The notes beneath the pieces are model-generated. The model worked only from the letters and a program-made list of their open reading frames with translations. It did no database searches and had not been told where the DNA came from. DNA of 60,083 bases from Myxococcales bacterium (GTDB taxonomy: Bacteria; Myxococcota; B64-G9). The position numbers and the translations under genes were made by a program. The DNA is taken from positions 1 to 60,083 of the forward strand of contig JAAZNF010000103.1 in NCBI GenBank assembly GCA_012798435.1. The letters run 5' to 3'. This document shows, one piece after another, positions 41,052 to 60,083 of this stretch. Every line of letters starts with the position of its first letter. Positions within the stretch are counted from its first letter, which is position 1.

Positions 41052-42809
41052 TCAGGGGAGGTCCAGAAGAAATTCCTGGGCTGCATTTTCCAGCGTGAAG
41101 CTTTTCTCGGTGGCGGCCTCTCCCTTCTCGGCCCGGAGGAGGAGCGGCGTCCGAAAATAGCGCGCCGGCTCGCTGGCAAAGCTCTTCTTCTGCGTCACCG
41201 TGACCGTGGCGCGACCGTTCTCGACCACGTGCGTCTCGTCGAGCTCGAGCCAGCCGGTCCCGAACGCCCACTGATCGAAGAACCAGCCGAGGTCGCTCCC
41301 CGCCTCGGTCTGCGCAACGGTCATGAACTCCTCGGTGGTGATGGCGGTGAAGGGGTGGCCCGCGCGGATTGTGCGCAGCAGCGAGCGCATGGCGGATTCG
41401 CCGATGACGCCCTCCAGCATCTTGAGCACCCAGGCGCCCTTCACGTAGAAGATGCGTGGCTCCATGTCGATCGGGGCGGGCGGGACCAGCGGATGATCCG
41501 TGCCACCGGCGGCCCACCAGTCGAGGAGCGGCCGCACCTCCCAGCGCCACAGGTTCCGGATGGCCTGCGCATCGTAGAGCGCTCCGAGCGCCTGCATGGT
41601 CACGTAGTCGGCCATGCCCTCGATGAGCCAGATGTTCCGGTTCTGCTGAATGAAAACGTCGTTCCCCCACCACTGGTGCGAAAGCTCGTGGCCCAAAAAG
41701 AAGTCTCGCTCAGAAAACGACCCCGTGCCGTCGTCGTCGAAGGTGTAGTTGGGGACCAGGATGAGCCCGGGAGCGGAAAAACCGTTGATAAAGCGCTCGT
41801 CCACCCCAGCGAAGGCGATCTCGGAGAAAGCCGGCGGCCCGAAGCGGGCGCTGAAATCCTCGCACAGCTTCTTCATGCCCGCCGCGTACGAGGCCGGGAC
41901 AATGGGGAACCCATCGATGCTCGCGCCCGGCATACCTGCCAGATGCAACGTGACATCGCCGCAATCGATATCGACGACCTGGTAACTGGATAATGCCAGG
42001 GAGACCCCGAACCATAACACATGCTCGACCTCGTATGCGGCGCTAGCGGTGCCGTCGCCGTTGCTCGCCTCGCTCAGTTTGCGCCCGCTGAAATACAGCC
42101 TCTGCGCCTCCGGGTAGCGGAGGCGGAACTCGACCCGGCCCAGGTTGTTTGTTTGCCGCGGCCTGGGCCAGAAGTGGTAGCCGTAGGTGAAGAAGGTGGA
42201 TGGGTTGCCCAGGTAGTTCGCGAGCACGATCCCGCCGCCCTCGAGCGTGAAATCCAGCTCTCGCTCGACGTCGCGGTCATGCCAGCGCACGCTCACGCTC
42301 CAGGCACCGCCCGCCGGGATGGGCTGGGCCGGGGTGACGGTGAGGATCTCGTTCTGGAAGGTGAAGGTCGCGGCGGGGTCCTGCGCCTCGACGGCGTCGA
42401 TGGCGGACGCCGAGAGGTAGAAGGCCAGCGACGAGATTTCGGCGTCGGCCGCGGTCACGGCGATAGTGGCCCGGCCCTCGAGGGTGCGCGCCACCGGATC
42501 CAGCGAGAGCTCGACGACGGTCGAGGGGAACTGGGGCGCAGGAAGGGCGGGAGCGCCGGGGGGTTCCATTCGCTCATGCAAGCGAAAGGCGTCGAGATCG
42601 AACCGACCGGGGAGCCGGCGGCGGGGCCACTCGGCCGACGTCAGGGCCTGCGAACCGGTGTCCGGCGGCGGGAGATCGGCGCGCAGCAGCGTCTCGTGCG
42701 GGTCGAGGAGGATGCGCCATTCTCCCGACCCGCCGCCGCAACCGGCGAAGAACGCGCAGATTGTCGCCACCAACGACCGGCCGACCGTTCGCCACTTGAG
42801 GTTCATCAT
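41052..42809 (-). CDS. M1 family metallopeptidase, lipoprotein
   Basis: A 585-aa predicted lipoprotein (hydrophobic start, FFAGCGGG lipobox). The M1 catalytic motif HELSHQWWGN (near 375) binds Zn with the Glu of WLIEGMADY (near 397), and the YVKGAWVL segment supplies the Tyr expected to stabilise the transition state. The usual GAMEN exopeptidase motif is replaced by GFSAPGLI, suggesting a changed substrate mode. Likely acts at the cell envelope on peptides. The start at 42809 is supported by AGGATGGGG upstream; an ATG at 42845 is less likely. It is 63 bases behind the S26-GNAT gene and may belong to the same transcript. Confidence 0.85.
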   Translation of the reverse strand: MMNLKWRTVGRSLVATICAFFAGCGGGSGEWRILLDPHETLLRADLPPPDTGSQALTSAEWPRRRLPGRFDLDAFRLHERMEPPGAPALPAPQFPSTVVELSLDPVARTLEGRATIAVTAADAEISSLAFYLSASAIDAVEAQDPAATFTFQNEILTVTPAQPIPAGGAWSVSVRWHDRDVERELDFTLEGGGIVLANYLGNPSTFFTYGYHFWPRPRQTNNLGRVEFRLRYPEAQRLYFSGRKLSEASNGDGTASAAYEVEHVLWFGVSLALSSYQVVDIDCGDVTLHLAGMPGASIDGFPIVPASYAAGMKKLCEDFSARFGPPAFSEIAFAGVDERFINGFSAPGLILVPNYTFDDDGTGSFSERDFFLGHELSHQWWGNDVFIQQNRNIWLIEGMADYVTMQALGALYDAQAIRNLWRWEVRPLLDWWAAGGTDHPLVPPAPIDMEPRIFYVKGAWVLKMLEGVIGESAMRSLLRTIRAGHPFTAITTEEFMTVAQTEAGSDLGWFFDQWAFGTGWLELDETHVVENGRATVTVTQKKSFASEPARYFRTPLLLRAEKGEAATEKSFTLENAAQEFLLDLP

Positions 42810-42872: not shown

Positions 42873-43730
42873 CTACAGCATCTTTTCAAGCAGGTCCATC
42901 TCGGCGGGCAGCGGTAAAAGATCCTTGCGCCGCGAGATCTCGCCGGGCGGGACGACCCGGAAGTCTCGCGATTCGAACAGCGCGCGCGAGGCGAGATTGT
43001 CCTTTCGCACCAGGGCCCCCAGGCGGCCGAGGCCCTCCCCGCGCGCCTTCTCTTCGACGGCCTCGAGCAACGCCCGGCCGACGCCCAGCCGCCGAAAAGG
43101 CGCGATCACCGAAAGGCTCGAGACGTACCCCGTGAGCGGGTCGGTCGAGGCCACGCAGGCGAGCACCACCTCTCCCATGCGTCCGAGACGCGAGCGAGCG
43201 ACGAACACCCAGGATTCACCGGTCCCGCCGCTGGCCCCGCCGCCATCCGGTTTCTTCGCGGACCCGAACGCCTGGCAGGCGACCTCGATCCTTCCTGCGG
43301 CGAGCCGGAGCAGCCGGACCGCGAGCGCGGAGAGCGCCGGGGCGCCGAGATCCTTGTCGGTGACGGCGCGCTTGATCCGCGGCAGGCGGCGCAGGAGCCG
43401 GCGCAGGCGGTGCTGCGCGTGGTTCGAGGCCAGCCCCACGAGATCGTCTATCCTGCGGTCGAGCCGGTGGTATTTCCCGTCGCGCCAGAAACCGACCACC
43501 CGGCCCAGCGCCTCGTGCGGCGAGAACGGGCCCTCCATCTCCAGGGTGGCGTCCCCCCGCGTCCAGAACTTCTCGCCCTCGAGCTTCACCACCCGGTGGG
43601 TGAGGTGGCGACCGCGACTGAGGATGGAGACGATCCAACCGAGGCGAGGCGGACCATCGAGCGGTGAAAGCTCCGGCCGGTCGCCGGAGCGGAGGATGGG
43701 GGACATGCTAGGGCCGAGGCTGCAATTCAT
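42873..43730 (-). CDS. S26-type peptidase domain fused to GNAT acetyltransferase
   Basis: A 285-aa fusion. Residues 3-90 match compact S26 peptidases: GPSMSPILRSGD (Ser8 as nucleophile), a central segment with THRVVKLEG (His45), and WTRGD (57-60). A Ser/His arrangement, as in the ER/SipW-type signal peptidases, fits better than Ser/Lys. Residues about 150-285 are a GNAT domain with the acetyl-CoA loop RRLGVGRALLEA (213-224). There is no hydrophobic anchor, unlike true signal peptidases, so it may act on cytoplasmic peptide. It is 8 bases downstream of the radical SAM gene in the peptide-modification locus. Confidence 0.75.
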   Translation of the reverse strand: MNCSLGPSMSPILRSGDRPELSPLDGPPRLGWIVSILSRGRHLTHRVVKLEGEKFWTRGDATLEMEGPFSPHEALGRVVGFWRDGKYHRLDRRIDDLVGLASNHAQHRLRRLLRRLPRIKRAVTDKDLGAPALSALAVRLLRLAAGRIEVACQAFGSAKKPDGGGASGGTGESWVFVARSRLGRMGEVVLACVASTDPLTGYVSSLSVIAPFRRLGVGRALLEAVEEKARGEGLGRLGALVRKDNLASRALFESRDFRVVPPGEISRRKDLLPLPAEMDLLEKML

Positions 43731-43738
43731 TTTGAAGC

Positions 43739-44737
43739 TTACAGGAGCAGTTGCCGGGCGAGTTTTCGGCGGACTGTCTTTTCATACAGCATCACCCGGG
43801 CCACGATCTCTTTCTTTCTTGCCTCTAGCTTTTCCAGCAGGACAGTGGTGGTCGCTTCGTCATTCATCAACGATACACACCTCTCGCACTGGAACATCCC
43901 CGCTCCCCAATCCTTGTCTTTCCCGGCCATTCTGGCGAGCCGGTCGGGTCCGAGAACAAGGATTCCGGCAAGCAGCAGGTCGCGTGAAGATCTCTCGAGG
44001 ATGTCGCCGATCGCCTCTCTTCGTACATCACCGAGGACAAGCGGCCATCTCGCCATGTGAAAGATCCGCGACGAGCAGCACGCCATGAGGCGGCCTTCTG
44101 GTGTAAGCAGCGGAGACAGGACGGTTTCGCAGGGAGCTCCTCGCGGTTTTTTCAGCCGGTCGGGCGGGAGCACCAGGGCTTCGCCAACGTTGTCGAGGTC
44201 GTAGGCGCCATCACGCTCGATCTGAATACCTGCCTTTTTTTTCTTCAGGACCGCTCGAAGCATCGATTGGGATCGGGCACCGACACCGCGCACTTTGACG
44301 AGAATGTTCGCCCGATTGCAGGCTCGGGCGAGCGTCGACACCTCCTCCACGGTGATCGCAGGATGGTGATAAGCGTCGAAGCTCACCGCAAGGCCCCGCA
44401 GACCTTTCTGGTGCGCCCGGTCGAGAATGCGATCGAGGTGGTGTGCTCGACGAGACCACAAGCCGTTGGTCACCACCGTCGAGGCCCGCCCGGTGTCCCG
44501 CGTGCATTGCAGCAGCCGAAGGAACCGCCCTGGATCGAGAAAAGCCTCGCCGCCGGTAAAGCTGACGACACGGATCCAATCGGGAAGGCCGCGGATCACA
44601 GTACGGATCATGCGCTCATCGCACACGGACCGACTTCGGATCGTTCGGGGAATGAAGCAGTGCCGGCAGGTTGCGTCGCAGGCCCAGCTTGTGGCGATCG
44701 CGATGCTGCGGTACTGGATGATCCGATCTGTTGTCAT
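43739..44737 (-). CDS. Radical SAM protein with extra cysteines
   Basis: A 332-aa radical SAM enzyme. The [4Fe-4S]/SAM motif is CDATCRHC (Cys20, 24, 27), followed by SFTGGEAF (GGE 62-64). Extra Cys at 203, 220-221 and 284/287 in SPASM-like positions suggest an auxiliary cluster used for peptide substrates. ATG 44737 is chosen because the domain starts right after it; no strong ribosome-binding site is seen, and it is 14 bases after the HprK-like gene, consistent with translational coupling. It may modify the 48-aa peptide; that is inference. Confidence 0.8.
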   Translation of the reverse strand: MTTDRIIQYRSIAIATSWACDATCRHCFIPRTIRSRSVCDERMIRTVIRGLPDWIRVVSFTGGEAFLDPGRFLRLLQCTRDTGRASTVVTNGLWSRRAHHLDRILDRAHQKGLRGLAVSFDAYHHPAITVEEVSTLARACNRANILVKVRGVGARSQSMLRAVLKKKKAGIQIERDGAYDLDNVGEALVLPPDRLKKPRGAPCETVLSPLLTPEGRLMACCSSRIFHMARWPLVLGDVRREAIGDILERSSRDLLLAGILVLGPDRLARMAGKDKDWGAGMFQCERCVSLMNDEATTTVLLEKLEARKKEIVARVMLYEKTVRRKLARQLLL

Positions 44738-44751
44738 TGTAGGTATTGAGC

Positions 44752-45513
44752 TTATAGCACCCGAGAGACGTCGTCGTGCTTTCTGAACGTAATCTCTTTG
44801 AGCTCTAGCTCCGCTGCCAGTCGCAAGAGAGAGGCGAACACGGTTTGGGGTGAACCCAGGAATCGGTCCGGCCAGATCACGTGCGGGCACAAGCTCGACA
44901 GCGCCAAGTTTCGCGGCAACGCGCGAACGGAAAGCGGTTTGTTCTTCCGGATGATCGCCACCGTTGCGACCGGGCCGTGCTCGTTTGCCCCCGGCCTCTT
45001 GTCGTTCTGGCACAGGGGAACACCGCAGGCTATCCAGCGCCCGTGGCAGCGGAGCAGTCCAATCCGATCGTCGTGGAGTGCCGCGTCGTAGGATGCGTGT
45101 TTCAACAAGGTCGACTTGCCCGACCCCGACTTCCCCGCGAACACGTGAACGGCGCCTTTCGTGCGATACCCGGCGGCATGGAGCAGGAGTCCGCCCGCGC
45201 GCGAAAGGGCTCGCGCGATGCACAGCGCAAGGGCTCCTGACACCGCCTCCACGATGGAGGCCTTGAGGACGACGCGCATGACCTTCGTGTGCTGCACGGA
45301 TTGAATCCATATACGGGCGGCGGCAACCCCATCCGCAAAGCGCGGGGTGCAGCGGACGAACTCTGGGCCCAACTCCAAACGGAGACCGTGTGAGGCGTGG
45401 TGGGATGTGCGAAATGGCCCGATGAGGGAATCCAAGGCCGGAAGCAACCTGTCATCGCACGACGCCGTGAACACCTCTCCGCACGTCTCGAATCTCCTTG
45501 TGGAAAAACCCAT
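44752..45513 (-). CDS. HprK-related kinase
   Basis: A 253-aa protein related to HPr kinase/phosphorylase and to HprK-like kinases found near PqqD proteins. LLLHAAG, the P-loop AGKSGSGKST (127-135) and HDDR (147-150) are present, and it has no HPr-binding N-domain. Such kinases phosphorylate small proteins or peptides, including in some lasso-peptide clusters. It starts 33 bases after the 48-aa ORF and has no good ribosome-binding site of its own. Confidence 0.8.
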   Translation of the reverse strand: MGFSTRRFETCGEVFTASCDDRLLPALDSLIGPFRTSHHASHGLRLELGPEFVRCTPRFADGVAAARIWIQSVQHTKVMRVVLKASIVEAVSGALALCIARALSRAGGLLLHAAGYRTKGAVHVFAGKSGSGKSTLLKHASYDAALHDDRIGLLRCHGRWIACGVPLCQNDKRPGANEHGPVATVAIIRKNKPLSVRALPRNLALSSLCPHVIWPDRFLGSPQTVFASLLRLAAELELKEITFRKHDDVSRVL

Positions 45514-45546
45514 GGGAAGCGCAGCACGGCGAGGGAAAAACGGGTC

Positions 45547-45693
45547 TTACCGTCGAGGTGGCCTGCGATATGGTCCGTATTCCAGGGCGCCCTCCTGCAC
45601 TGGAGTGGAAAACATGCTCCGTATGAAAGAGAGCCGTTTCGATACGACCACGGGCCGAGAGTATCTGGACTTCTTCCTGTGCGACCTTCTCAT
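45547..45693 (-). CDS. 48-aa basic small ORF, candidate peptide precursor
   Basis: A short ORF on the minus strand, ATG 45693 to TAA 45547, preceded by GGAGG with 4 bases to the ATG, the same spacing as at the PqqD-like gene. It starts 16 bases after the stop of the giant lipoprotein gene and ends 33 bases before the HprK-like gene. The peptide has 11 Arg, 3 Lys and 1 His but only 2 Glu, and no Cys. Residues 7-17 read KKSRYSRPVVV, matching the Y-x-x-P leader motif that RRE/PqqD-type proteins recognise in several RiPP families. The C-terminal part (31-48) is Pro/Tyr/Arg-rich. Its role as a substrate of the locus is a proposal, not shown. Confidence 0.5.
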   Translation of the reverse strand: MRRSHRKKSRYSRPVVVSKRLSFIRSMFSTPVQEGALEYGPYRRPPRR

Positions 45694-45709
45694 GTTTCCT
45701 CCGGGGATT

Positions 45710-48700
45710 CTAATAATACACTGTCATGTATCCATTGCTGGGGGAGCCGATTCCCGTGACCACGAGCTCAATGTCCCCGAGTCCATTGAAGTCACCCAGC
45801 GCCGTTCCGTATCCGAAGTAACCACTTCCGCTCAACGTGGTGTCGGGGTCGCTTGGGAAGTATGGCGAGGTGCCGGTGTTGAGGTACAAGAACGCGCGGT
45901 TGCCGCCCGAGGAGTTCGTCCCGACGCAGAAATCCGGACGGCCGTCGCCGTTGATGTCTGCGGAATCGAGATCCCAGCCGAAGTTGATGTTCTCGGGGTG
46001 ACTGATGAGCTTGGTATAGGTCTGCGAGATCTTTCTCGCCGGCGGCGGATTGCCGTTGTCCACGGCCGGGAATAGGTAGATCAGGTGGGAAAAGGCGTTG
46101 GAAACCAGCAGGTCCGGCACCGAGTCTCCGGTGAAGTCGACGCCGCCGATCGTGCGCATGCCGAACCCCGCGCGGTTCGTACCTGGATTGGCGATGTTGT
46201 ACGTGATGGTATCCACCGCGTTTCCCGAGGCAGTCAGGCTGGTTCCGCTGGCCCCGGAAAGCACTCGGCCGTCGTACGTGTAGATCTGGTTGATGCCTGA
46301 GGCGATGAACACCGCATCGTCAATGCCATCTCCATCCACGTCGCCGAGCGTACCGGTGCCAGAGCGGTAGCCGAACCAGTCGTTCGCGGCGTTGCCGAGG
46401 ATGCTGATATCGGCGGCGCTCGCGTCGATGTATCCCGTGCCGCTGGCCGCGGCCAGCCAATCCGCCCTGGAGCGACCATAGAAGATGTACCCCACGCCGT
46501 TGCTGTTCGCTGCCGGAGCCGAGACGAACAAATCATCGCAGTTGCTGCAGGTGCAGTTGAACGGCGGAGTTGTCTCCTTGATGCAGCCCACGTTGCCGAT
46601 GATTTCGACGCTGCGGCCAAACTCGGCGGCGGGCAGCGGTCCACGAATTTCTACGTCCGCCGTGGCGGGCAAACCCGCCGCGCCCCGGCTGAAGTAGATG
46701 GACACCCGTCCCTGGTTGGAGTTGTAGCCCCGCCCCGCCACCGCGAGATCCGGATAGCCGTCGCCGTCCAGATCGCCCCGGCAACCCAGATCCCATCCGA
46801 AACGCTCTCCGGTGCTGCCGCGGGTCAGGACGGTCGGGGCGGTGCCCCCACTGCCCCAGCTGGCCAGATTCTCGTTGCCATAGAAAACATACAGGGCACC
46901 GATATTTCCGGAGTACGGGTACTCCGACACCGCCAGGTCTTGTCTGCCATCGTCATTGACGTCGCCGATGTTCCAGGCATTGGCACCGAACCCCACGACC
47001 GTACCCGAGAACGTGGCCTGGTTCCAGTTGTTGGCCACCACCACGTCCCCCGGCACCGGCCCCAGATTGCCCAGCTCGTCCACCGCGCGCAGCGCGAGGT
47101 GATAGGTGTTGAGCGGCGGCAGCCACTGGGCGGTGAAGCTCTCGGCCTGGCCCGGGGCCTGCGGATCGAGGTTCACGGCAATCGGCCTGGCGGCCGTCCA
47201 GCTCGCCTCGTCGGTGATGGCCGTGCGCGCCCAGCGCAGCTCGTAGGATGTGGCCGTGCCGCTCGCGCCGTCGTCGCCGACCGCCGTCCAGTCGAGCCGC
47301 ACGTCGGCGTGCCGGCTGTGGGTGAGCGTGGCGCTGGCGGCGATGACCGCCGGCGGGGTGACGTCGGCAAGCACCGTCATGGGGAGGTGCGTCTCGTTGC
47401 CGGCGTAGTCGCTGGCGACGACGTCGAGCGCGTTCGAGGCGTTGTCGGGGAGCTGCACGTTGGTGAAGCTCACCGCCTGGCTGGCCTGGTCGATGGACTG
47501 CGAGGCCAGCGTGTTCGCGCCGAGCTTGATGGACAACGTGCCGGGGTAGGTGGCGTCCCCGCCGCCGGTCACGGTGAAGCCGAAGTCCATGTCGCAGGGC
47601 GCGCCGTCGATCTTGTCGGCCAGGATGGTCGTGCCGTTCGCGTTGGGGTTGCCGCTGGAAGCGACACACTGGACGCTGTCTCCGCCGGGGGCGGTTCGCG
47701 AGAGCCCGGGCGGGACGAGATCCACCAGCTCGACCTGGAAGGATTCCTGGTTCTGGTTGCCGACCCCGTCGTCGATGGTGGCCTCGACGGTGATGCCCGA
47801 GGCGCCGTCCGCCATCTGGACGTTGGTGAACGTGGCGCAGCCGCTGCCGTCGAGCGCCTGGGCCGAACCGAACGGCACGCCGTCGAGGGTGAGGCGCATG
47901 GTGCAAGCGGCGCAGTTTGCGGCGTTGCAGGTGTTGGAGCAGGCGGTCACGTCGATCTGGAGACCGTTCGCGGCGTTGTGGTCCTTGTCGTCCGATAGGT
48001 TGAAGATCTCGACGCCGAGGAAGCCGGCGATCTCGATGTCGCAGCCGGTGACGTCCACCGCCACGCCCGGGATGGGGTAGTCGGCCGAGACGTTGCCGGA
48101 GGCGTCGGTCGCGTTCACCGTCACGTCGCGCGTGCCCTCGGGGAAGCCGCAGGTGAAACTGGTGGTGCCCGAGCCGTCCACCGGCACGGTGCAGCGCAGC
48201 CCGGAGACGCTGGAGTACACCCGGATGTCGCCTCCCGTGGCGCCCGTGGTCGAACAGGTGAAGGGCACGTCCTGGGTGTTGTAGGTGTGGTTGGCGCTCG
48301 GCGAGCTGCACGAGATGGTCGGCCGGACGGTGTCGACGAAGATGTTCTTGGTCGCCTGGGGGGCCGGGTTGCCGCAGGCGTCCGCCACGTCCGCGCGCAG
48401 GGTCTGGTCGCCCTGGCCGACGCTGACCTGGAGCGAGGCCGCGCCGCCGGTGACGGAGCCCGCGCCGCCCGGGGCGAAGATCACCGTCTGGCCGTCCTCG
48501 GCATTCGTCGAAACCGCGAAGACGAAGTCGAGATCCTCGCTGGCCGGGTTGAGGTCGTCGGCGTAGAGCAAGTTGGTCTTGCTCGGCTGGGTGATGGCGA
48601 GCGCCGGGGGCGTCACGTCCACCTTGGCCATGAAGTGCGCCTCGGGGTTCTCGATGAGCGGGTTCTCCCACACGTTGGGGTTGTTGAAGGCGTCGCGCAC

Positions 48701-51700
48701 TTCCACGGTGAGGTCGTACTCTCCCTCGGCCAGCGAGACGTTGAACACCGCCGAGCCGCCGTTCACCGTGGAGGTGGCCAGGGTGGTCCCGGGCGGCCAG
48801 TCGCGCTTGAGGGCGATGGAGCGGCCGTCCTCGGCGCCGGTGACGCTCACCGTGGCCTGGAGGCTGCCCTGGGCGGCCGAGACGCAACCAAGCGAGTTCA
48901 GGTTGGTGACGATCGAGGTCACCGCAGGCGGGATGCTGTCCACGTGGACCAGGATAGGGTCCGAGTACGTGCCCTGGCCGGGGATGTTCTCGGCGTAGCC
49001 CACGATGACGTTGTCGCCCTGCTCGAACGGCACGCAAGAGATAGACGTCGTGCCTCCGGTCACCGTGCCGCGCCAGGCCTCGTTGCCGTGGCCGGCGCAG
49101 GCGCCCTCGGGGAGTCCCGTGCCGGGCGACACGCACACCACCAGGAGGTCTCCGAGCGCCGTGTTGATGGTGTCGATGTTGACCTGGGTCTGGAAGCCGG
49201 CCGGCGCGCACATGTCGGAGAAGACGTTGAGGTTGGCGTCGTTGAGCGGCCGGGACACCGTGACCTGCGGGGCCAGGGTGCGGATGGATACGTTGCTCGT
49301 GGCGGACCCGCTGTTGTCCGCGGCGTCCTTGAGCGAACAGGTGATGACCACGTCCGCGCTCGGCTGGGCCGTCGTGTCGGCGATGAGCGTCGCCTGCGAG
49401 AAGGTGTAAGAGGCGAGCTCAGAGGCGGCCAGCGTGTGCTCGACGGGCAGGATGCTCCCGCCGCCGGCCACGGTCAGCGTGACCACGTCGCCAACCACGG
49501 CGCCGGTGAAGGTGCAGGTGACGTTGCGCTGGAAGCCGGGGGCCAGCGACTGGTCGTCCATGGCACCGAAGACCGAACCGTCCGCGGGGGCGGTGACGGC
49601 CACACCCGGGATCAGCCGGTCCACCCGGATGGAAACCACCGGCACGTCCGAACAGTTGCCGGCGCGGTCGCACACCCGGGCCGCGAGCGTGTGCTGGGCC
49701 TGGTCGGCGACGGTGACGGCCGGGAAGGTGACGAGGTTGCTGGCGAACCGCGGAGGCTCGCCCACGAGCTCTGCGGGCGCGCCGTCGACGAGCAGCGTCG
49801 CCGGTTGATCGTCCTCCACGTCCGCGCCGATGCGCACCCGGATCTGGAAGCCCGGCGCACCGGAGGTGTCTACGCTGGCGGCGTTGTAAACGGCGCCGTC
49901 TTGCGGCTCGAGGAAGGCCGCCTGGGGAGGTGCGCTGTCCACCACCAACCGCGAATACAGCGAGGTGCCGGTGTGCCCGGCCGGATCCGCGCACGAGGCC
50001 CAGAAGTCGTAGTCGCCATCCACCAATGTTTGCGCGACGTTCGAGTCTCCGCTGGCGTTTACCACGCCCTGGCCCACGGCGATGGCGGAGTCGCACACCG
50101 GAGGCAGCCCGCCCGCCTGGTGGGCGCGCCGACACAGGTAGCAGGTCTGCCCCGTCCCGGCGCTGGTGTGGATGGTCAGTGTCTGGTCGGTCTGCGGCGA
50201 GGCGGTCCCGTCGAGCGGCGCGGAGATCACCACGATGGGCAACGTGGCGTCGCCGACCTGCAGCAAGACGCTCTTGTGGGCGGTGCCGACCGCGTTGTGG
50301 GCCTCGATCCGCAGTTCGACCGCGCCGCGCGGGAGCGGAAGGTTCGAGAACACAGCCATGCCAGCGCCGGAAACCAGCGCCCGCACCGGCGCGCGGGCGA
50401 ACCCGTTGTCGACGATGGTGAGATCGGCCGGGGTCCCAGGAGCGACGTGGTCCACCCGGGCGATCACGGTGTACACCCGCGAGGCCTCGTCGATGGCGAT
50501 GGGTTGGCTCGCGCTCTCGTCGGGATCCAGGAAGGTGATGACCGGCGGGTCGGTGGCGAGACAGGCCGAGAGGTGCAGGGTGGCGGTGCCCTGGTTGCCC
50601 GGCGCGCCGGGCTGACCGGCCAGGATGTCGCCCACGGAGACGACCAGCGTGTTCTCGGTGCAGCCGCTGCCGGCCCAGAAGAGCGTCACCGGGCACAGCG
50701 CGCCGTTGCCGGTCACGGTGCAGCCGAAGTCGGCCGAGTCCGTCCCGGCGCTGACATGGATGCCGGCCACCGCGCCATCGGGAACGCCGCTGGTGGTGAT
50801 CGACAGCTCCACGTCGAGGGTGTCCGCGGACGAGCCCTCGGCGGGGCTGGTGACGGCGACCTGCGGGGTGTGGCCGTCCACGGTCACGGAGACGGCGGGC
50901 GAGGCCTCGCCGGTGTCGAGCACGCAGCGAAGCGTCCTGACGCCGTCCAGGAGGGTGGTCTCGGCGACGGCCGCGTTGCCGTTCACCTGGATGCCGGCCA
51001 GGGCCTGCTGCCCGGAGATCTGCAGGGTGAGCCCGGCGCCGTCGCTCACGTTGGCGGTGACGATGCGCACGTCATACTGGAGGTCGTTCTGCTCGTCGTG
51101 ATCTTTGTCGACCGCGGCCAGCAACACGCTGTCCGGCGCGGGATCCACGATCTGGCAGGTCCGTTGCTCGGTCTGGGCAGTGACGATGACCGGGTCGGAG
51201 AACGCCTCCTGGCCGCAGGCGTCGCGCCCGCGCACCTGCAGGGTGTAGGCGCGCGACTGGAGGAAGCTCGCCCAGTGGAACTCGAAGTCCGCGCCGGGGA
51301 AGAATACCTCGGGCCGCAGCGGCTGCTGGTCGCTGCCTAGCACCGCCTGGCCGTCGAGCAGAAGCTCCATGTCCTGCGCCCGCGGCACGCCCTGCGAGGC
51401 GCCGCGCACGGCTACCTGAATACCGGGTTCATTCACGTCGCGATCGGCGGCGTCGGTGATGACGATGCCGGCCGGGGGCGAGGTGATCTCCATGGCAAGC
51501 GGGGTGGCGCACACGAAGTAGGTGTTGGGGACGGCGCGGCCCGTGCGGCCACCGCTGGGCTCCGCCGCCACGGCCTGGACCAAGAACTCTCCGTCCGCGA
51601 AGGTCACCTTGACCGGCGCCCGGTGGTTTTCGATGGTGGCGTTGTACTCGACCGTCCCCACGGTGAGGATCACGCTGGAGCCCTCGGCGCAGGCGAACGT

Positions 51701-52588
51701 CCCCGCGGCGTCCGTCTCGGCGGCGAGGGTCACCTGCAGGCCGTCCACGCCCGGCTCCTCGTCGTCGGCCACGCGGAAGATCGTCCCGTCGGCGGGCGAA
51801 AGGCGCAGGGCGCAGCCGCCGGTGCTCACCGTGGCCCGGATCTCGGCCACCACGGTCTCGCCGCCGCTGCCGGTGGTCTCGGCGTGCAGCAGGTTCTCAC
51901 CCTCGGAGAAGTCCACGTTGGCAAAAAGCGCCCCGCCGCTCGCCAGGTCCCGCGTGAGCGGCCGGCGGCCGTTTATGGAGAGCCGGAGCTCGGTGCCGTC
52001 ACTCACGCCCTTGCACACCAGCCGGACCTCGTGCTGGAAGCCCTCGGCCGGGTTCTGGTCGTCCGTGGCGGAGAGCGTCGCGCCCTCGGTCGGTGACTCG
52101 AAGCGGCAGGCCGGAATGCCGAGCTGGACCAGCACGTCCCGGCAGGACTCGAGCGGGACCGCGTGGGCCGAGCAACCGCCGCTGCCGTCCTGGTTGCGGT
52201 CCACCGCGGGGGTGGCGCTCGCGCACAGGTGGTTGATGCCCGGCAGGAAGGTCTGATCCGAGAAGTCCACGTGCCCCACCTGCGAGACGGCGTCGTCGAT
52301 GACCACGGTTCCTTCCACGGGTGTCGGCTGGAGGGAGTTGACCAGGGTCACCTTGGTCCCGGCCGGCAGACAGCGGGTGGTCAGCGTGACCGGGTACTGG
52401 ATGCCTTCCACCGCGGGCTTGGTGTCGTGGAACTCGGTCAGCGGCGCGGTGCCGGAGGGGCTGGTGAATGACGCCTCCGGGGTGCAGTCGCACGGCTTGC
52501 TGGTGCCTCCGCAGTCGCAGGCAGCCGCGGCGAGAGCCAGAGAGGCGATGGCGATGACGTACAGGGTTCTTTTGGCGAGGCGCTTCAT
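45710..52588 (-). CDS. Giant lipoprotein with Ig-like repeats and FG-GAP propeller
   Basis: A 2292-aa lipoprotein (signal 1-24, lipobox LAAAAC). About residues 30-1740 are tandem bacterial Ig-like domains with strands such as VAVTAPADGSVFGAMDDQS and VDSIPPAVTSIVTNL and paired Cys in several. A fibronectin-III-like domain is near 1743-1843 (TSYELRWARTAI). From about 1859 to the end there are FG-GAP repeats with Ca-binding DVNDDGRQDLAV and DLDGDGYPDLAV motifs, forming an integrin-alpha-like propeller. It is expected at the outer membrane as an adhesin or scaffold. The C-terminal third looks less GC-rich than the Ig part. The small ORF and the kinase/radical SAM genes follow at short distances. 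Confidence 0.85.
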   Translation of the reverse strand: MKRLAKRTLYVIAIASLALAAAACDCGGTSKPCDCTPEASFTSPSGTAPLTEFHDTKPAVEGIQYPVTLTTRCLPAGTKVTLVNSLQPTPVEGTVVIDDAVSQVGHVDFSDQTFLPGINHLCASATPAVDRNQDGSGGCSAHAVPLESCRDVLVQLGIPACRFESPTEGATLSATDDQNPAEGFQHEVRLVCKGVSDGTELRLSINGRRPLTRDLASGGALFANVDFSEGENLLHAETTGSGGETVVAEIRATVSTGGCALRLSPADGTIFRVADDEEPGVDGLQVTLAAETDAAGTFACAEGSSVILTVGTVEYNATIENHRAPVKVTFADGEFLVQAVAAEPSGGRTGRAVPNTYFVCATPLAMEITSPPAGIVITDAADRDVNEPGIQVAVRGASQGVPRAQDMELLLDGQAVLGSDQQPLRPEVFFPGADFEFHWASFLQSRAYTLQVRGRDACGQEAFSDPVIVTAQTEQRTCQIVDPAPDSVLLAAVDKDHDEQNDLQYDVRIVTANVSDGAGLTLQISGQQALAGIQVNGNAAVAETTLLDGVRTLRCVLDTGEASPAVSVTVDGHTPQVAVTSPAEGSSADTLDVELSITTSGVPDGAVAGIHVSAGTDSADFGCTVTGNGALCPVTLFWAGSGCTENTLVVSVGDILAGQPGAPGNQGTATLHLSACLATDPPVITFLDPDESASQPIAIDEASRVYTVIARVDHVAPGTPADLTIVDNGFARAPVRALVSGAGMAVFSNLPLPRGAVELRIEAHNAVGTAHKSVLLQVGDATLPIVVISAPLDGTASPQTDQTLTIHTSAGTGQTCYLCRRAHQAGGLPPVCDSAIAVGQGVVNASGDSNVAQTLVDGDYDFWASCADPAGHTGTSLYSRLVVDSAPPQAAFLEPQDGAVYNAASVDTSGAPGFQIRVRIGADVEDDQPATLLVDGAPAELVGEPPRFASNLVTFPAVTVADQAQHTLAARVCDRAGNCSDVPVVSIRVDRLIPGVAVTAPADGSVFGAMDDQSLAPGFQRNVTCTFTGAVVGDVVTLTVAGGGSILPVEHTLAASELASYTFSQATLIADTTAQPSADVVITCSLKDAADNSGSATSNVSIRTLAPQVTVSRPLNDANLNVFSDMCAPAGFQTQVNIDTINTALGDLLVVCVSPGTGLPEGACAGHGNEAWRGTVTGGTTSISCVPFEQGDNVIVGYAENIPGQGTYSDPILVHVDSIPPAVTSIVTNLNSLGCVSAAQGSLQATVSVTGAEDGRSIALKRDWPPGTTLATSTVNGGSAVFNVSLAEGEYDLTVEVRDAFNNPNVWENPLIENPEAHFMAKVDVTPPALAITQPSKTNLLYADDLNPASEDLDFVFAVSTNAEDGQTVIFAPGGAGSVTGGAASLQVSVGQGDQTLRADVADACGNPAPQATKNIFVDTVRPTISCSSPSANHTYNTQDVPFTCSTTGATGGDIRVYSSVSGLRCTVPVDGSGTTSFTCGFPEGTRDVTVNATDASGNVSADYPIPGVAVDVTGCDIEIAGFLGVEIFNLSDDKDHNAANGLQIDVTACSNTCNAANCAACTMRLTLDGVPFGSAQALDGSGCATFTNVQMADGASGITVEATIDDGVGNQNQESFQVELVDLVPPGLSRTAPGGDSVQCVASSGNPNANGTTILADKIDGAPCDMDFGFTVTGGGDATYPGTLSIKLGANTLASQSIDQASQAVSFTNVQLPDNASNALDVVASDYAGNETHLPMTVLADVTPPAVIAASATLTHSRHADVRLDWTAVGDDGASGTATSYELRWARTAITDEASWTAARPIAVNLDPQAPGQAESFTAQWLPPLNTYHLALRAVDELGNLGPVPGDVVVANNWNQATFSGTVVGFGANAWNIGDVNDDGRQDLAVSEYPYSGNIGALYVFYGNENLASWGSGGTAPTVLTRGSTGERFGWDLGCRGDLDGDGYPDLAVAGRGYNSNQGRVSIYFSRGAAGLPATADVEIRGPLPAAEFGRSVEIIGNVGCIKETTPPFNCTCSNCDDLFVSAPAANSNGVGYIFYGRSRADWLAAASGTGYIDASAADISILGNAANDWFGYRSGTGTLGDVDGDGIDDAVFIASGINQIYTYDGRVLSGASGTSLTASGNAVDTITYNIANPGTNRAGFGMRTIGGVDFTGDSVPDLLVSNAFSHLIYLFPAVDNGNPPPARKISQTYTKLISHPENINFGWDLDSADINGDGRPDFCVGTNSSGGNRAFLYLNTGTSPYFPSDPDTTLSGSGYFGYGTALGDFNGLGDIELVVTGIGSPSNGYMTVYY

Positions 52589-52712
52589 GAAAAAAACCTC
52601 CCCGGGAACGGGCTATTCTCCCCCGGTAGTGGGTAAACTAACCGATTTCGACCATCACCACAAGGGGCCGTCGCACAGATCGCGAGTTTCGCCCCTGCTC
52701 CGTGCGGCGCGG

Positions 52713-53117
52713 CTACCCCTTCGAGACCAGACCCTTCTTGGACAGGCACTGGATGAACCACAGCGTATCCTTCTGGGCCACCTCGGGCGTGACGTCGAAC
52801 TCCTCCCGGATCCGCTCGGCGACCTGGGCCACCGTCTGGTTCTGGCCCAAGAGCTCCCAGATGCGCGTGCCGGTCTCGTTCAGCGAGTGCATGGTGCTGT
52901 CCGAGGGGGTGATGATCACCGCCTCGCCGTCGATGAGCCGCCAGGCGACGTTCTTCTGGCGCTGGATGCGGTCCGAGGGCTTGAAACTCACTGCGGCGGC
53001 GGCCGTCTTGGCGCAGGCCTTGCTCCCGGCCTTGGAGGAGGTCTTCGATGACGTCGCCTGCTTCGTCTTGGACTTCGCCGGTTTGGCTGCCGCCCGAACG
53101 GTCTTTTTCGTGGCCAT
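52713..53117 (-). CDS. PqqD-like protein with Lys/Ala-rich N-terminus
   Basis: A 134-aa protein. Residues 50-130 resemble the PqqD winged-helix fold that binds peptide leaders (RLIDGEAVIITPSDSTMHSLNETGTRIWELL). The first ~45 residues are a low-complexity Lys/Ala/Ser tail not found in ordinary PqqD. PqqD-type (RRE) domains present substrate peptides to radical SAM enzymes; a radical SAM gene is in this same locus, about 8 kb away on the same strand. GGAGG lies 4 bases before ATG 53117. Its promoter (53171-53199) is good. Confidence 0.8.
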   Translation of the reverse strand: MATKKTVRAAAKPAKSKTKQATSSKTSSKAGSKACAKTAAAAVSFKPSDRIQRQKNVAWRLIDGEAVIITPSDSTMHSLNETGTRIWELLGQNQTVAQVAERIREEFDVTPEVAQKDTLWFIQCLSKKGLVSKG

Positions 53118-56286: not shown

Positions 56287-59200
56287 TCAGTGTATGCAGC
56301 GCCGGCGGCGCAGCAAGAACACCAGGGGCAGCAGGGAAAGCCCCGCCGGTCCGCTCCCGCAGCCGCAGCCGCCGTCGGTGGGAAGCTCGTCTTCCGTCAC
56401 CTCTACGAAATGCAGCGAGTTCGGCGCGTCGGCCGGCGAGCGGGCGGTGTTCTCGAGCGGCGATGTGTCCCTGGCCTCGAGGTAGTATTCCAGCATCCCC
56501 CGCTCCACCACCGCGGCCGGGATCTCGCCCGAGAAGACGCCGCCGGTTCCCGCCGCCATGTCCACGGACAGGAAGGTCTGCGTCCCCTGCATGCGGAAGA
56601 AGAGCCGCGCCTGCTGGATACCCGAGGCGTCGGTGATGCTCGCCTGGACGGCGATCGCGTTCTTGGCGCGGGCGGGATCCGGCTCCGCCTTCACGCCGGA
56701 TATCACCGGCGGGTCATGGTCGAGGGTCGTGTTCTCCTCGACGCCCACGCTGAAGGTCGCGTCCGGGGCGTTCGCCGGGAGGCTGGAGCTGTTCTGGTTG
56801 GGCGAGAAGTCGATCGCCTCGATGTAGTACTTGAGCTCCGGCAGGCGCACGGCGGAGGCCGGCACCGTGGCCGTGTATTCGCCCACGGTGCCTGTGGGCG
56901 AGGCGCGCAGGGGCCAGAACCCCGCCTGGTTGGCGTCGTACACCCACACCGTCACGTCCTCGACGCCGCTCGCGTCGGTGGCGGTGGCGCGAAGCTCGAC
57001 GGCCGTGCCCTCGGTCACCGGGCCGGCGGGCGGTGTGTGGCTGATGACCGGGCCGTCGCGGTCCGAGCTGTCCTGGACCGCGAAGAAGAAGGGGCTTTCG
57101 GCGAAATCCGCCGGCAGGCTTGTGAGGTTCGCGAGCGGGGAGCCGTCCGTGGCCTGGAGGTAGTACTCGACACCCGGCAAAGTCACTGTCGCCGCTGGGA
57201 TCTCGGCGGTGTAGAGGCCGCCCGTCCCGGCGGCCATGGCAAGGTGCTGATACGCGCCGGCGCCCTGAACCCGATAGAACAGGTCGACGCTGGCGACCGT
57301 GCTGCGATCGCTCACCAGGGCGGAGATGGCGACCACCGTCCCCGCCTCCACCGGGCCGACCACCGGCTGGTGGGAGATGGCCGGGCCTTCCCGGTCCTCG
57401 GTCTCCTGCGTCACGCTGAACACGAACGGGGCGGAAGCGCCCTGGGCCGGCAAGGTGCGGGTGTTCTGGTTGGCGGAGGCATCCGTCGCCTCCAGATAGT
57501 ACTCCACGCCGGGCAGAGCCACGGCGGCGCCGGGGATGGCGGCCGCGTAGAGGTCTTGTCCCACGCTCGCCAGCGAAAGGTCGGTCCAGGCCGTCGCTCC
57601 CTGGAGGCGATAGCGGCAGGTGACGGAGGCCACCCCGCTCGGGTCGGTCACCGCCGCCTGGATGCTTACATCCTGCCCCGCCGGCTGGCCGTTCGCCACC
57701 GGGGTGTGGGTGATCGACGGCCCCTCGGTGTCGTCCGGCGTCGAACAGACCGGGTTCTCCTGGCCGGGGCTGCCGAAGTCTCCCCCCGCCCAGGTGGCGT
57801 CGGCGAGGCACCAGTTGGCGGCGACGTCGTTGTCCTGGTGGGAGAGGTGCGCCGGATCCAGGCTCAGCGCGGCGCCGACCATGATGGGCCAGCCCGCGCT
57901 CTTGTCGTAGGCTACCCGGTCCACCACCGTGGCGCCGGCCCGAAGCTCGATCTCATCTGTGCTGTTCGCCAGCAGCATGCCGCCATACACGTAGTCCACC
58001 GGGACCGAGCCGTTCGCCTGGGGGTCGGAGGAGCGGCCCAGTACCAGGTAACCGTGAGATGGGATGATCACCGGCAGCGTGCCGCCGATGGTGAAGCGAT
58101 CCGAGCCGTCGTCGCGCACCTCCCAGCCGGTGAGGTCGATGTCGCTCGCGGTGGTGTTGTAGAGCTCGAACCACTCGCTGGCCGGCTCGGGGAGCGAGGC
58201 GTCCGCCATGATCTCTGTGACGATGACGTCGCCGGGCTGAGCCACGATCTGGCGCGCAACGCTGAAGGAGAACGTCGTGGCCGGGGCGTCCGCCGGCAGC
58301 GTCCCGGTGTTGGCCGGGCTGGCCCGGTCGGTGGCTTCCAGGTAGTACTCCACGCGCGGCCACAGGACCGAGGCCGCCGGGATGCTCGCCTGCCAGGTGT
58401 CGCCGCCGGTGTTGCTCATGGCCACGCTGGAGAACGCGATGGCCGAGCCGCCCTTGAAGTACAGGCGCACCGCGTCCACGCCGCTTCCGTCCGTCACCGT
58501 GGCCTGGATGGCCACCGCGGTCCCCTCCGGCTGGCCGTCGCCGATGGGCGTGTGCGCGATGGCCGGCGGTTGGGTGTCGAGGTTGACCACGTTGAAGTGG
58601 AAGAACGCCGCCGGGGCGGTCCCGGGCAAGACGCTCACGTTCTGGTTGGCGCTCCCGTCGCGGGCCCACAGGTAGTAGTCCACGCCGGCGGTGGTGACCG
58701 CGGAGGCCGGGATGGTGCCGGCGTACTGGTTGCCCGCGACCTGCGCGAGCGGTGCCTGGGAGAAGGAGGCGGCGCCGCTCACCCGGTAGTAGAGCGCGGC
58801 GGATTCGATGCCGTTCTCGTCGGAGAGCGAGGCCACCACGGTCACGTCTTGCCCCGCGGGCTGCTCGCCGAGCTGGGTGTGGCTGATGACCGGGCCGGTG
58901 GTGTCGCCGGGGCTGCCCACCCGCACCAGCACGGTGTCCTGCCCGGTGGCGCCGTCGTCGTCGGTCACGGTCAGCGTCACAGTGAAGTTGCCGCTGGCGC
59001 CGTAGCGGTGGTTGACCTGGGCGCCGGAGGCGTTCTGGCCGTCGCCGAAGTCCCAACTCCAGGCCACCACCGTGCCGTCCACGTCGCTGGAGGCGCTGCC
59101 GTCGAAGTACACCGTCTCGTTGATCTCGGCCACCTTGTCCGGGCCGCCGCGCGCTACCGGCCGGGTGTTCACGTGGATGGTGGCCCGGTCGATCCCGGTG

Positions 59201-60083
59201 AGTCCACCGTTGTCGGTCACGGTGAGGGTGAGCGTGTACGTCCCGGCGGTGGCGTAGGTGTGCGTCACGTCCAGGCCGCTGCCGTTGTTGCCGTCGCCGA
59301 ACTCCCAGGCGTACGAGACGATGGTGCCGTCGGGGTCGTAGGAGCCGCTGCCGGAGAAGCTGGCCGGCTCGTCCTTGATCACGGTGCGGTTGGGGCCGGC
59401 GTCGGCCACCGGGTAGCGGTTGGCGGTGCGGTTGAACTCGTAGGCCCCCATGTCCCACAGCGGCGAGCCGGGATCGCGGCCCTGGAGCGGCCGCGGCTGG
59501 TTTTCGATGTCGTGATCGGGCGAGCCGGTGCCGGTGCCGGTGTCGATGCAGGGACTGTTGGGCTGGAGGTGGAGGTTGTCCTCGGTGGCGTTCACGTAGA
59601 TCGGATCCAGCGAGATGCTGTTGCTGCCGCCGTTCTGATTGCCGCTCGTGTTGCCCCACACGTCGTTGTAGCTCGCAGTGTAGCTCGTCGAGTAGGTATA
59701 GATGCCCTGGGAGTTGTTCTGCGAGACGATGCTGTTTTTCAGCGTGGCCGTGCCGTACCAGAAGTACAGCCCGTAGCTCGAGTTGGCGTGCACGGTGCAG
59801 TTCACCAGGCTGGTGGTCCCCGAGTCCGAGTACACCCCGTAGCCGGTGTTCCGGTAGATGAGCGCGTTGGTGAGCGAGGCGGAGGCGCCGCTGGCCACGC
59901 TCACGGCGGTGCTCGAGCTCGAGGTGCCGTTGTGGTGCAGATACAGCGCGTCGCCCGTGAGCGAACCCTGGTTCGCGTAGAGCCCCGCCGTCCCGCTCCC
60001 CGTGATCTCGCTCTGCGTGATCATCGTCCCCGTGGCATAGTTGTGCACCCCGTACTTCGCCTTCTCGATCACGCCGTTGTCCA
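56287..60083 (-). CDS. MYXO-CTERM surface protein with beta-helix, PKD and Ig-like domains (5'-truncated)
   Basis: The gene runs off the window end; the visible 1265 codons are open to the edge and the apparent start is internal. In order: right-handed beta-helix (visible residues 1-210, GYGVYSDSG and GLYFWYGT turns), two PKD domains (WEFGDGNNGSG, WSWDFGDGQNASG), about seven repeated Ig-like domains (each with GP(A/V)ISH... and YYLEATD), and a lamin-tail-like domain (WFELYNTTASDIDLTGWEVRDDG). The end is a MYXO-CTERM signal: GGCGCGSGPAG, a hydrophobic stretch (LSLLPLVFLL), RRRR. Such proteins are sorted to the surface, probably by a myxosortase. Confidence 0.85.
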   Translation of the reverse strand, partial: DNGVIEKAKYGVHNYATGTMITQSEITGSGTAGLYANQGSLTGDALYLHHNGTSSSSTAVSVASGASASLTNALIYRNTGYGVYSDSGTTSLVNCTVHANSSYGLYFWYGTATLKNSIVSQNNSQGIYTYSTSYTASYNDVWGNTSGNQNGGSNSISLDPIYVNATEDNLHLQPNSPCIDTGTGTGSPDHDIENQPRPLQGRDPGSPLWDMGAYEFNRTANRYPVADAGPNRTVIKDEPASFSGSGSYDPDGTIVSYAWEFGDGNNGSGLDVTHTYATAGTYTLTLTVTDNGGLTGIDRATIHVNTRPVARGGPDKVAEINETVYFDGSASSDVDGTVVAWSWDFGDGQNASGAQVNHRYGASGNFTVTLTVTDDDGATGQDTVLVRVGSPGDTTGPVISHTQLGEQPAGQDVTVVASLSDENGIESAALYYRVSGAASFSQAPLAQVAGNQYAGTIPASAVTTAGVDYYLWARDGSANQNVSVLPGTAPAAFFHFNVVNLDTQPPAIAHTPIGDGQPEGTAVAIQATVTDGSGVDAVRLYFKGGSAIAFSSVAMSNTGGDTWQASIPAASVLWPRVEYYLEATDRASPANTGTLPADAPATTFSFSVARQIVAQPGDVIVTEIMADASLPEPASEWFELYNTTASDIDLTGWEVRDDGSDRFTIGGTLPVIIPSHGYLVLGRSSDPQANGSVPVDYVYGGMLLANSTDEIELRAGATVVDRVAYDKSAGWPIMVGAALSLDPAHLSHQDNDVAANWCLADATWAGGDFGSPGQENPVCSTPDDTEGPSITHTPVANGQPAGQDVSIQAAVTDPSGVASVTCRYRLQGATAWTDLSLASVGQDLYAAAIPGAAVALPGVEYYLEATDASANQNTRTLPAQGASAPFVFSVTQETEDREGPAISHQPVVGPVEAGTVVAISALVSDRSTVASVDLFYRVQGAGAYQHLAMAAGTGGLYTAEIPAATVTLPGVEYYLQATDGSPLANLTSLPADFAESPFFFAVQDSSDRDGPVISHTPPAGPVTEGTAVELRATATDASGVEDVTVWVYDANQAGFWPLRASPTGTVGEYTATVPASAVRLPELKYYIEAIDFSPNQNSSSLPANAPDATFSVGVEENTTLDHDPPVISGVKAEPDPARAKNAIAVQASITDASGIQQARLFFRMQGTQTFLSVDMAAGTGGVFSGEIPAAVVERGMLEYYLEARDTSPLENTARSPADAPNSLHFVEVTEDELPTDGGCGCGSGPAGLSLLPLVFLLRRRRCIH

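Follow-up and report, generated by a model that had tools for sequence, protein, structure and literature searches.

The window, by which we mean the whole stretch of 60,083 nucleotides analyzed here, carries on its minus strand a run of closely spaced genes that encode a discrete PqqD/RRE domain protein, a giant lipoprotein, a small open reading frame (ORF), a kinase, a radical SAM enzyme (rSAM), and an S26 peptidase domain fused to a GNAT domain (Table 1). An earlier note, made from the sequence alone, had described these six genes, and all of them were found on the minus strand where the note had placed them, with the gaps it had given (124, 16, 33, 14, and 8 bases, in the order just listed). 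Its domain guesses also held, by Pfam for the PqqD, rSAM, FG-GAP, Big_13, and GNAT domains, by motif and alignment for the S26 domain, and by predicted fold for the kinase. Gene content and order are directly shown; the folds are predicted by model. In two respects the note had to be amended. The unit extends to a seventh gene, encoding a secreted M1 metallopeptidase lipoprotein, which lies directly downstream in L013, L014, L015, and L018 as well, with its HELxH motif kept. The strong promoter claimed for the PqqD gene is only half supported: the −35 element is a perfect TTGACA (53198, minus strand), but the −10 element, TAGTCT, is poor, and a promoter scan upstream of the PqqD gene called no minus-strand promoter.

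Table 1. Features of the minus-strand unit, in order along that strand
Feature	Coordinates	Strand	Supporting evidence
PqqD/RRE domain protein, discrete, 134 aa	52713..53117	-	PF05402 1.9e-18
Giant lipoprotein, 2292 aa	45710..52588	-	Lipobox LAAAAC, Ig-like repeats, Fn3-like domain, FG-GAP propeller
Giant, C-terminal modelled region (Fn3-like + propeller)	45713..47398	-	AlphaFold, Foldseek
Precursor peptide, 48 aa	45547..45693	-	Y11-x-x-P14 leader motif; core end YGPYRRPPRR
HprK/PEPCK-fold kinase, 253 aa	44752..45513	-	H112, GKSGSGKST, HDD
Radical SAM enzyme, 332 aa, EpeE/YydG-like	43739..44737	-	Radical_SAM 9.9e-9; CxxxCxxC
SipW-like S26 peptidase domain fused to GNAT	42873..43730	-	S8, H45; GNAT 1.5e-11
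Secreted M1 metallopeptidase lipoprotein	41052..42809	-	PF01433 1.3e-17; HELSHQWW...WLIEG

The giant lipoprotein gave Pfam matches to FG-GAP (3e-16) and Big_13 (3e-12). An AlphaFold model of its C-terminal 562 aa (pLDDT 87.9) found its best Foldseek matches among integrin alpha headpieces, and the protein is predicted on this basis to end in an integrin-alpha-type propeller, the fold by which integrins bind their partners. It is further predicted to be anchored by an N-terminal lipid. Most of the modelled region is comparatively well conserved within the giant, and the peptide gene adjoins the propeller-encoding end of the giant gene.

The genes differ in codon composition. The peptide, kinase, and rSAM genes (43739-45693) have a low GC3 (0.63-0.76) compared with the giant and PqqD genes (~0.91-0.94); at L014, the kinase, rSAM, and S26 genes (0.51-0.66) lie beside a giant and a PqqD gene at about 0.91-0.94. 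These low values may reflect either relaxed codon use or replacement by transfer.

Conservation of the gene order and of the PqqD-propeller-peptide trio

The earlier note had proposed conservation of the gene order in myxobacterial genomes as a check, and relatives that keep the kinase and rSAM genes without a small ORF and a PqqD-like gene as a refutation. The outcome was the opposite of that refutation. Relatives of the rSAM occur in 8 of 195 genomes from the phylum, one of them being that of the window (a single-sequence rSAM scan of GTDB contigs gave no match), and the order PqqD-giant-small ORF-kinase-rSAM, mostly followed by S26, was found in seven other genomes from families f1, f12, and f17, three of these relatives being Myxococcota/Deltaproteobacteria metagenome-assembled genomes (MAGs). 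All relatives whose contig is intact keep a small ORF with a YxxP motif, and none whose contig extends far enough lacks PqqD at the locus; in G003, the PqqD gene and the start of the giant gene are on another contig. Since the order is conserved in seven other genomes and the peptide is conserved at the protein level (below), we judge the unit to be more than a chance arrangement.

Conservation is uneven across the unit. Within f1, the giant (~42% identity; full-length relatives at L013-L015) and PqqD (~55%) are better conserved than the kinase, rSAM, and S26 proteins (~25-37%), and PqqD is present in all nine f1 genomes. A search with PqqD only matched 67 of 193 genomes, and the neighborhoods show the same trio of PqqD, giant, and peptide in other Myxococcota families. 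For these loci we scored an ORF of 35-75 aa carrying [YW]xxPx[ILVM] within ~110 bp after a gene. Such an ORF directly follows 32 of the 70 ORFs of ≥900 aa, and inspection showed 31 of these to be PqqD-linked giant or propeller genes, while the remaining one (L175, 949 aa) looks like a chance hit. A peptide ORF follows every one of the 31 giant Ig/FG-GAP or PQQ-propeller genes, from 11 Myxococcota families, that are linked to PqqD and intact at the 3′ end; no such gene lacking one was found in the loci examined. In the control, only 5 of 1,142 shorter ORFs passed the same test, three of them being followed by genuine RiPP-type precursors. The control ORFs are shorter than the giants. The motif had been derived from the f1 peptides; similarity to PqqD was the only basis on which 21 of the 31 loci had been collected.

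The remaining genes vary between loci. The kinase and S26 form one fused protein at L153, the S26-GNAT fusion recurs at L167, and no S26 was found in f17 (L018). Neither kinase nor rSAM was detected at L163, L164, L182, L184, and L187, where the giant-peptide link still holds, and at L182, L184, and L187 no kinase, rSAM, or S26-type enzyme was detected nearby. Members of f13 can have, in place of the FG-GAP giant, a secreted protein of 1025 aa that carries a PQQ-type propeller. The f13 loci L170-L173, L175-L177, L180, and L189, from large myxobacterial genomes, read S26-PqqD-small lipoprotein-PQQ-type propeller protein-peptide-kinase (annotated by Pfam in L177).

PqqD is not always accompanied by a giant. 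In G001 the two lie apart, and G007 has PqqD without a giant; at L166 (G001) and L151 (G007), the PqqD gene lies beside other genes. G007 has a second, SPASM-type PqqD/rSAM/kinase/S26 locus (L179), which, like L188, reads PqqD-rSAM-peptide-kinase-S26, with a C25 gingipain-family peptidase and no giant propeller protein as neighbor, and has a Cys-containing precursor. The window's genome itself encodes a second PqqD-domain protein (L190, around 9463-9888, on contig C124 of G000), around which no YxxP peptide, kinase, rSAM, or S26 relative was found.

The precursor peptide and its putative modifying enzymes

The 48-aa ORF is very likely a real RiPP-type precursor, although a modified product itself is inferred. 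Its gene has a GGAGGAAAC-ATG ribosome site, and the alignment of its relatives shows an invariant Tyr and Pro (YxxP) followed by a conserved SK/SE-x-(I/V) segment, while the f1 peptides end in GP[FYE]R-x-x-PRR. In most f1 pairs, synonymous sites are near saturation and non-synonymous differences amount to 0.33-0.53; the f12 pair has a dN/dS of 0.18. Because pN lies well below near-saturated pS in f1, and given the dN/dS in f12, we regard the ORF as translated and under constraint. The RiPP criterion of a small precursor ORF with a conserved leader adjoining an RRE is fulfilled, and the note's statement that the locus makes or tailors a modified peptide is supported, while the final form of the peptide is not shown by sequence.

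The PqqD protein consists of an Ala/Lys-rich N-terminal tail and an RRE, and its closest solved structures are a PqqD-family protein (9x8z) and the lasso RRE TbiB1 (5v1u). Discrete PqqD/RRE domains bind the [Y/W]xxP leader motif, and RREs recognize leader peptides (PMC13381572); we predict by homology that the window PqqD binds the 48-aa precursor through its YxxP leader.

The fold of the kinase was predicted because sequence evidence alone was weak (best NCBIfam E value about 1e-3, no PDB match). Its AlphaFold model (pLDDT 86.6) matches PEPCK and HPr kinase/phosphatase structures, and the His, Walker A, and DD motifs are kept. That it phosphorylates the peptide is inferred by homology.

The rSAM carries C203, C220, C221, C284, and C287 in addition to the CxxxCxxC motif. 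Its closest solved relative is by far EpeE (8ai1-8ai6), which its profile matches at 2.5e-30 over nearly the whole length (vs 2.8e-8 for PqqE), with all eight cysteines aligned, including a CC pair that is conserved in all eight EpeE-like rSAMs. Cys223 of EpeE is the proposed H-atom donor (review, PMC8326336), and it would be one of the two cysteines of this pair provided that the 344-residue construct includes a 25-residue tag. The YydG family model (TIGR04078) was not reached, however, with 77.1 bits against a cut-off of 300, and the reaction could differ from epimerization. A longer, 523-aa reading of the rSAM ORF was rejected: its first 190 aa lie over the kinase gene in a different frame, and the match to relatives begins no earlier than about residue 177. 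The gene starts with the ATG at 44737. At other loci, the rSAMs examined belong to types other than the YydG-like one. The L015 rSAM (8045-9991) carries, fused at its C terminus, a SAM-dependent methyltransferase domain (Methyltransf_25, 3e-11), which by eye resembles protein arginine methyltransferases; the cores end in PRR.

The S26 domain was identified by its motif GPSM...THRV...RGD and by alignment with relatives. Of the Ser-His-Asp triad, Ser8 and His45 are present and the third residue is unclear. We infer by homology that this domain is a leader peptidase resembling the SipW-like one of linear polyphosphorylated peptide (LPP) loci; that the fused GNAT domain acts on the new N-terminus is merely a possibility and a guess. 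The nucleophile is Ser in the window, L012, L167, and L177, and Cys (GHCM, GRCM, GACM, or GTCM), with the His kept, in L013, L014, L015, L016, L017, and L153 (9356-10513).

In our opinion, the best single argument for the inferred chemistry, made by analogy, comes from spacing. In the LPP motif YxxPxVLxHQxIxFET|xxS, the cut falls between Tyr+15 and Tyr+16 and the phospho-Ser is at Tyr+18 (PMC13381572). Counting in the same way, the window leader is predicted to be cut after S26 (Tyr+15), leaving the putative core MFSTPVQEGALEYGPYRRPPRR, with S29 at Tyr+18 as candidate phospho-Ser. Position Tyr+18 is Ser in five of the six f1 peptides and Thr in one (L012). The f13 peptides at loci with S26 and kinase carry ALA|QVS, ALA|QIS, or ALA|AMS at the LPP cut position, an AxA signal-peptidase-like site exactly at LPP spacing. 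In the rSAM-linked f12 and f17 peptides, Tyr+18 is Ala or Gly. This agreement at Tyr+15 and Tyr+18 played no part in the selection of the loci. Cysteine content follows the rSAM: Cys is absent from all 11 peptides beside a YydG-like rSAM and present at least once in all 24 others, and the split recurs within f12, where Cys is missing from the peptides at L016 and L017, which have the rSAM, and occurs once at L153, which does not. The lineages are not independent, and we claim no p-value. Thioether (sactipeptide) chemistry was ruled out for the window, there being no Cys in its peptide or in any peptide linked to a YydG-like rSAM.

Relation to known systems and a proposed surface partnership

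The LPP genes LppA/K/B/S/D/N (Popov et al. 2026), described from Bacillota, offer the closest comparison: leaders with YxxP are bound by the RRE, which is also required for their removal by a SipW-like peptidase, and Ser3 of the core is the target of an HprK-like kinase (PMC13381572). The window shares the YxxP precursor, the discrete RRE, the HprK-like kinase, and the Ser at Tyr+18, and its S26 domain resembles the SipW-like peptidase. In contrast, LPPs have an NTP transferase and an MsbA-like exporter, both absent among the operon genes and nearest neighbors scanned, whereas the operon has an EpeE-like rSAM, a GNAT domain fused to S26, an M1 peptidase, and a giant propeller lipoprotein; further, the f1 core is conserved at its C terminus, and the S26 nucleophile of several relatives is Cys instead of Ser. 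Epipeptides (EpeX/EpeE, that is, YydF/YydG) have the most similar rSAM, with all Fe-S cysteines and the CC pair, but the window enzyme scores far below the family cut-off, and epipeptide loci, as described, use EpeP/EpeAB and have no PqqD, kinase, S26, or giant. Phosphorylated lasso peptides of the paeninodin type share the [Y/W]xxP leader, discrete RRE, and HprK-like kinase; a lasso assignment was ruled out by the absence of a macrolactam cyclase and B2 peptidase from the operon and the scanned neighbors. The SynChlorMet cassette (ScmC, ScmD, ScmE, and ScmF) likewise unites HprK-like, PqqD-like, and radical SAM proteins, but its models stayed well below their cut-offs (ScmC 15.6/125, ScmD 37.9/100, and ScmF 23.3/400 bits), and a giant protein is not part of those family descriptions. 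By inference, the operon is likely to work like an LPP system with an epimerase added, yet with the missing NTP transferase and exporter, the 77 of 300 bits, the missing cyclase and B2 peptidase, and the low SynChlorMet scores, it does not qualify for any of these four. In its general logic it also recalls PQQ biosynthesis (PqqA/D/E), in which an RRE and an rSAM mature a peptide and a secreted beta-propeller quinoprotein uses the product; unlike there, the cores vary by family without a common Glu/Tyr pair, and the propellers are FG-GAP or other types. RiPP systems as such are known, and the combination is new. The PqqD-giant propeller protein-YxxP peptide trio was not found in the literature searched; apart from a lasso paper that is unrelated, no accessible publication links PqqD to FG-GAP proteins (the searches did not extend to subscription articles or to most preprints).

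On balance, we favor, without strong confidence, a model in which the operon makes a phosphorylated, probably epimerized, leader-cleaved peptide that partners the giant outer-surface lipoprotein. PqqD would first bind the Y11xxP14 leader; the kinase would then phosphorylate S29, and the EpeE/YydG-like rSAM would alter stereochemistry (L- to D-residues) in the Cys-free core. Together with PqqD, the S26 peptidase would cut near S26|M27, and the GNAT domain might acylate the new amine. Transport of the core to the surface would depend on genes outside the operon. Once there, the core may be trimmed by the M1 peptidase and would act with the giant, whose Ig stalk bears a propeller head resembling that of integrin alpha, either as a docked ligand, as a plug, or as an attached tip. 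While leader motif and catalytic residues are shown, leader binding, phosphorylation, cleavage, and epimerization are inferred by homology, the export route is an inference too, and the M1 role, like that of GNAT, is a guess. The missing exporter is the main gap. The note had suggested that the giant may be a partner, scaffold, or substrate; the link between giant and peptide proved stronger than it supposed, but how the two meet is not shown, and the use of the peptide by the surface protein is inferred from linkage only, without expression data.

It is tempting to go further and to regard the mature RiPP as a component made specifically for its giant integrin-like surface protein, structural or acting as a ligand, that would form a tip, docked or attached, on the propeller of that protein and not be released as an antibiotic, with core and maturation enzymes swapped between lineages and the PqqD-propeller-peptide trio kept together across Myxococcota. 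Taken jointly, we consider these two statements a tentative proposal that may well prove wrong.

Among the alternatives, a different rSAM reaction on the core, such as a C-C or C-O cross-link or C-methylation, remains possible. The low YydG score, the core Arg, Tyr, Phe, and Pro residues that other rSAM enzymes use, and the methyltransferase fusion at L015 speak for it; the clear lead of EpeE among solved relatives and the invariant CC pair speak against it, and thioethers are excluded by the Cys-free cores.

Unlikely, in our view, is a secreted natural product (an LPP- or epipeptide-like antimicrobial or signal), with the giant as immunity protein, receptor, or regulated neighbor in the same transcript and not a physical partner. 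Four parts match LPP loci, epipeptides are antimicrobial (PMC8326336), and related Methylococcus and Acidobacteriaceae loci carry export genes (an ABC transporter, or HlyD and an outer membrane efflux protein) with no giant detected. However, the operon has no exporter, the peptide follows the giant in 31 of 31 loci even where kinase and rSAM were not detected, and within the unit, conservation is comparatively high for giant and PqqD.

That PqqD, kinase, and rSAM act on the giant itself, with the small ORF as docking or adaptor peptide, is very unlikely: the giant gene is in the operon and HprK-like kinases can act on proteins, but the YxxP motif sits in the small ORF and none stands out as conserved in the giant alignment, RREs recognize leader peptides (PMC13381572), and the signal peptide and lipobox take the giant out of the cytoplasm, where the enzymes work.

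RiPPs have mostly been studied as released antibiotics, signals, or cofactors. A YxxP precursor following a giant secreted propeller gene throughout a phylum would link the surface of bacteria with the modification of peptides, and the surface-partner reading, if true, would amount to more than a new variant of RiPP system. The analysis suggests EpeE-like epimerases in a Gram-negative, RRE-dependent setting, and a SipW-like leader peptidase outside Bacillota, with GNAT fused to it and a natural Ser-to-Cys change of its nucleophile. It yields a searchable signature (PqqD, a giant propeller gene, and a YxxP ORF within ~110 bp) and 30-odd precursors, none of which was found described in the literature searched.

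Two side observations remain. At L024 (Methylococcus capsulatus Texas), L025 (an Acidobacteriaceae MAG), and L023 (Methylacidiphilum), a small peptide gene precedes YydG-like rSAM and PqqD genes, with a kinase gene between in L023 and L025, NTP_transf_5 in L024 and L025, export genes present, and no giant or S26 detected. The leader in L024 and L025 is lasso-like (YxxPxLxxYG..TQG), and these three loci apparently represent a second undescribed RiPP type. Within the window, positions 56287-60072 (minus strand) encode a further large protein of secreted type, in which PKD, lamin-tail, and Ig-like domains are combined with a beta-helix region.
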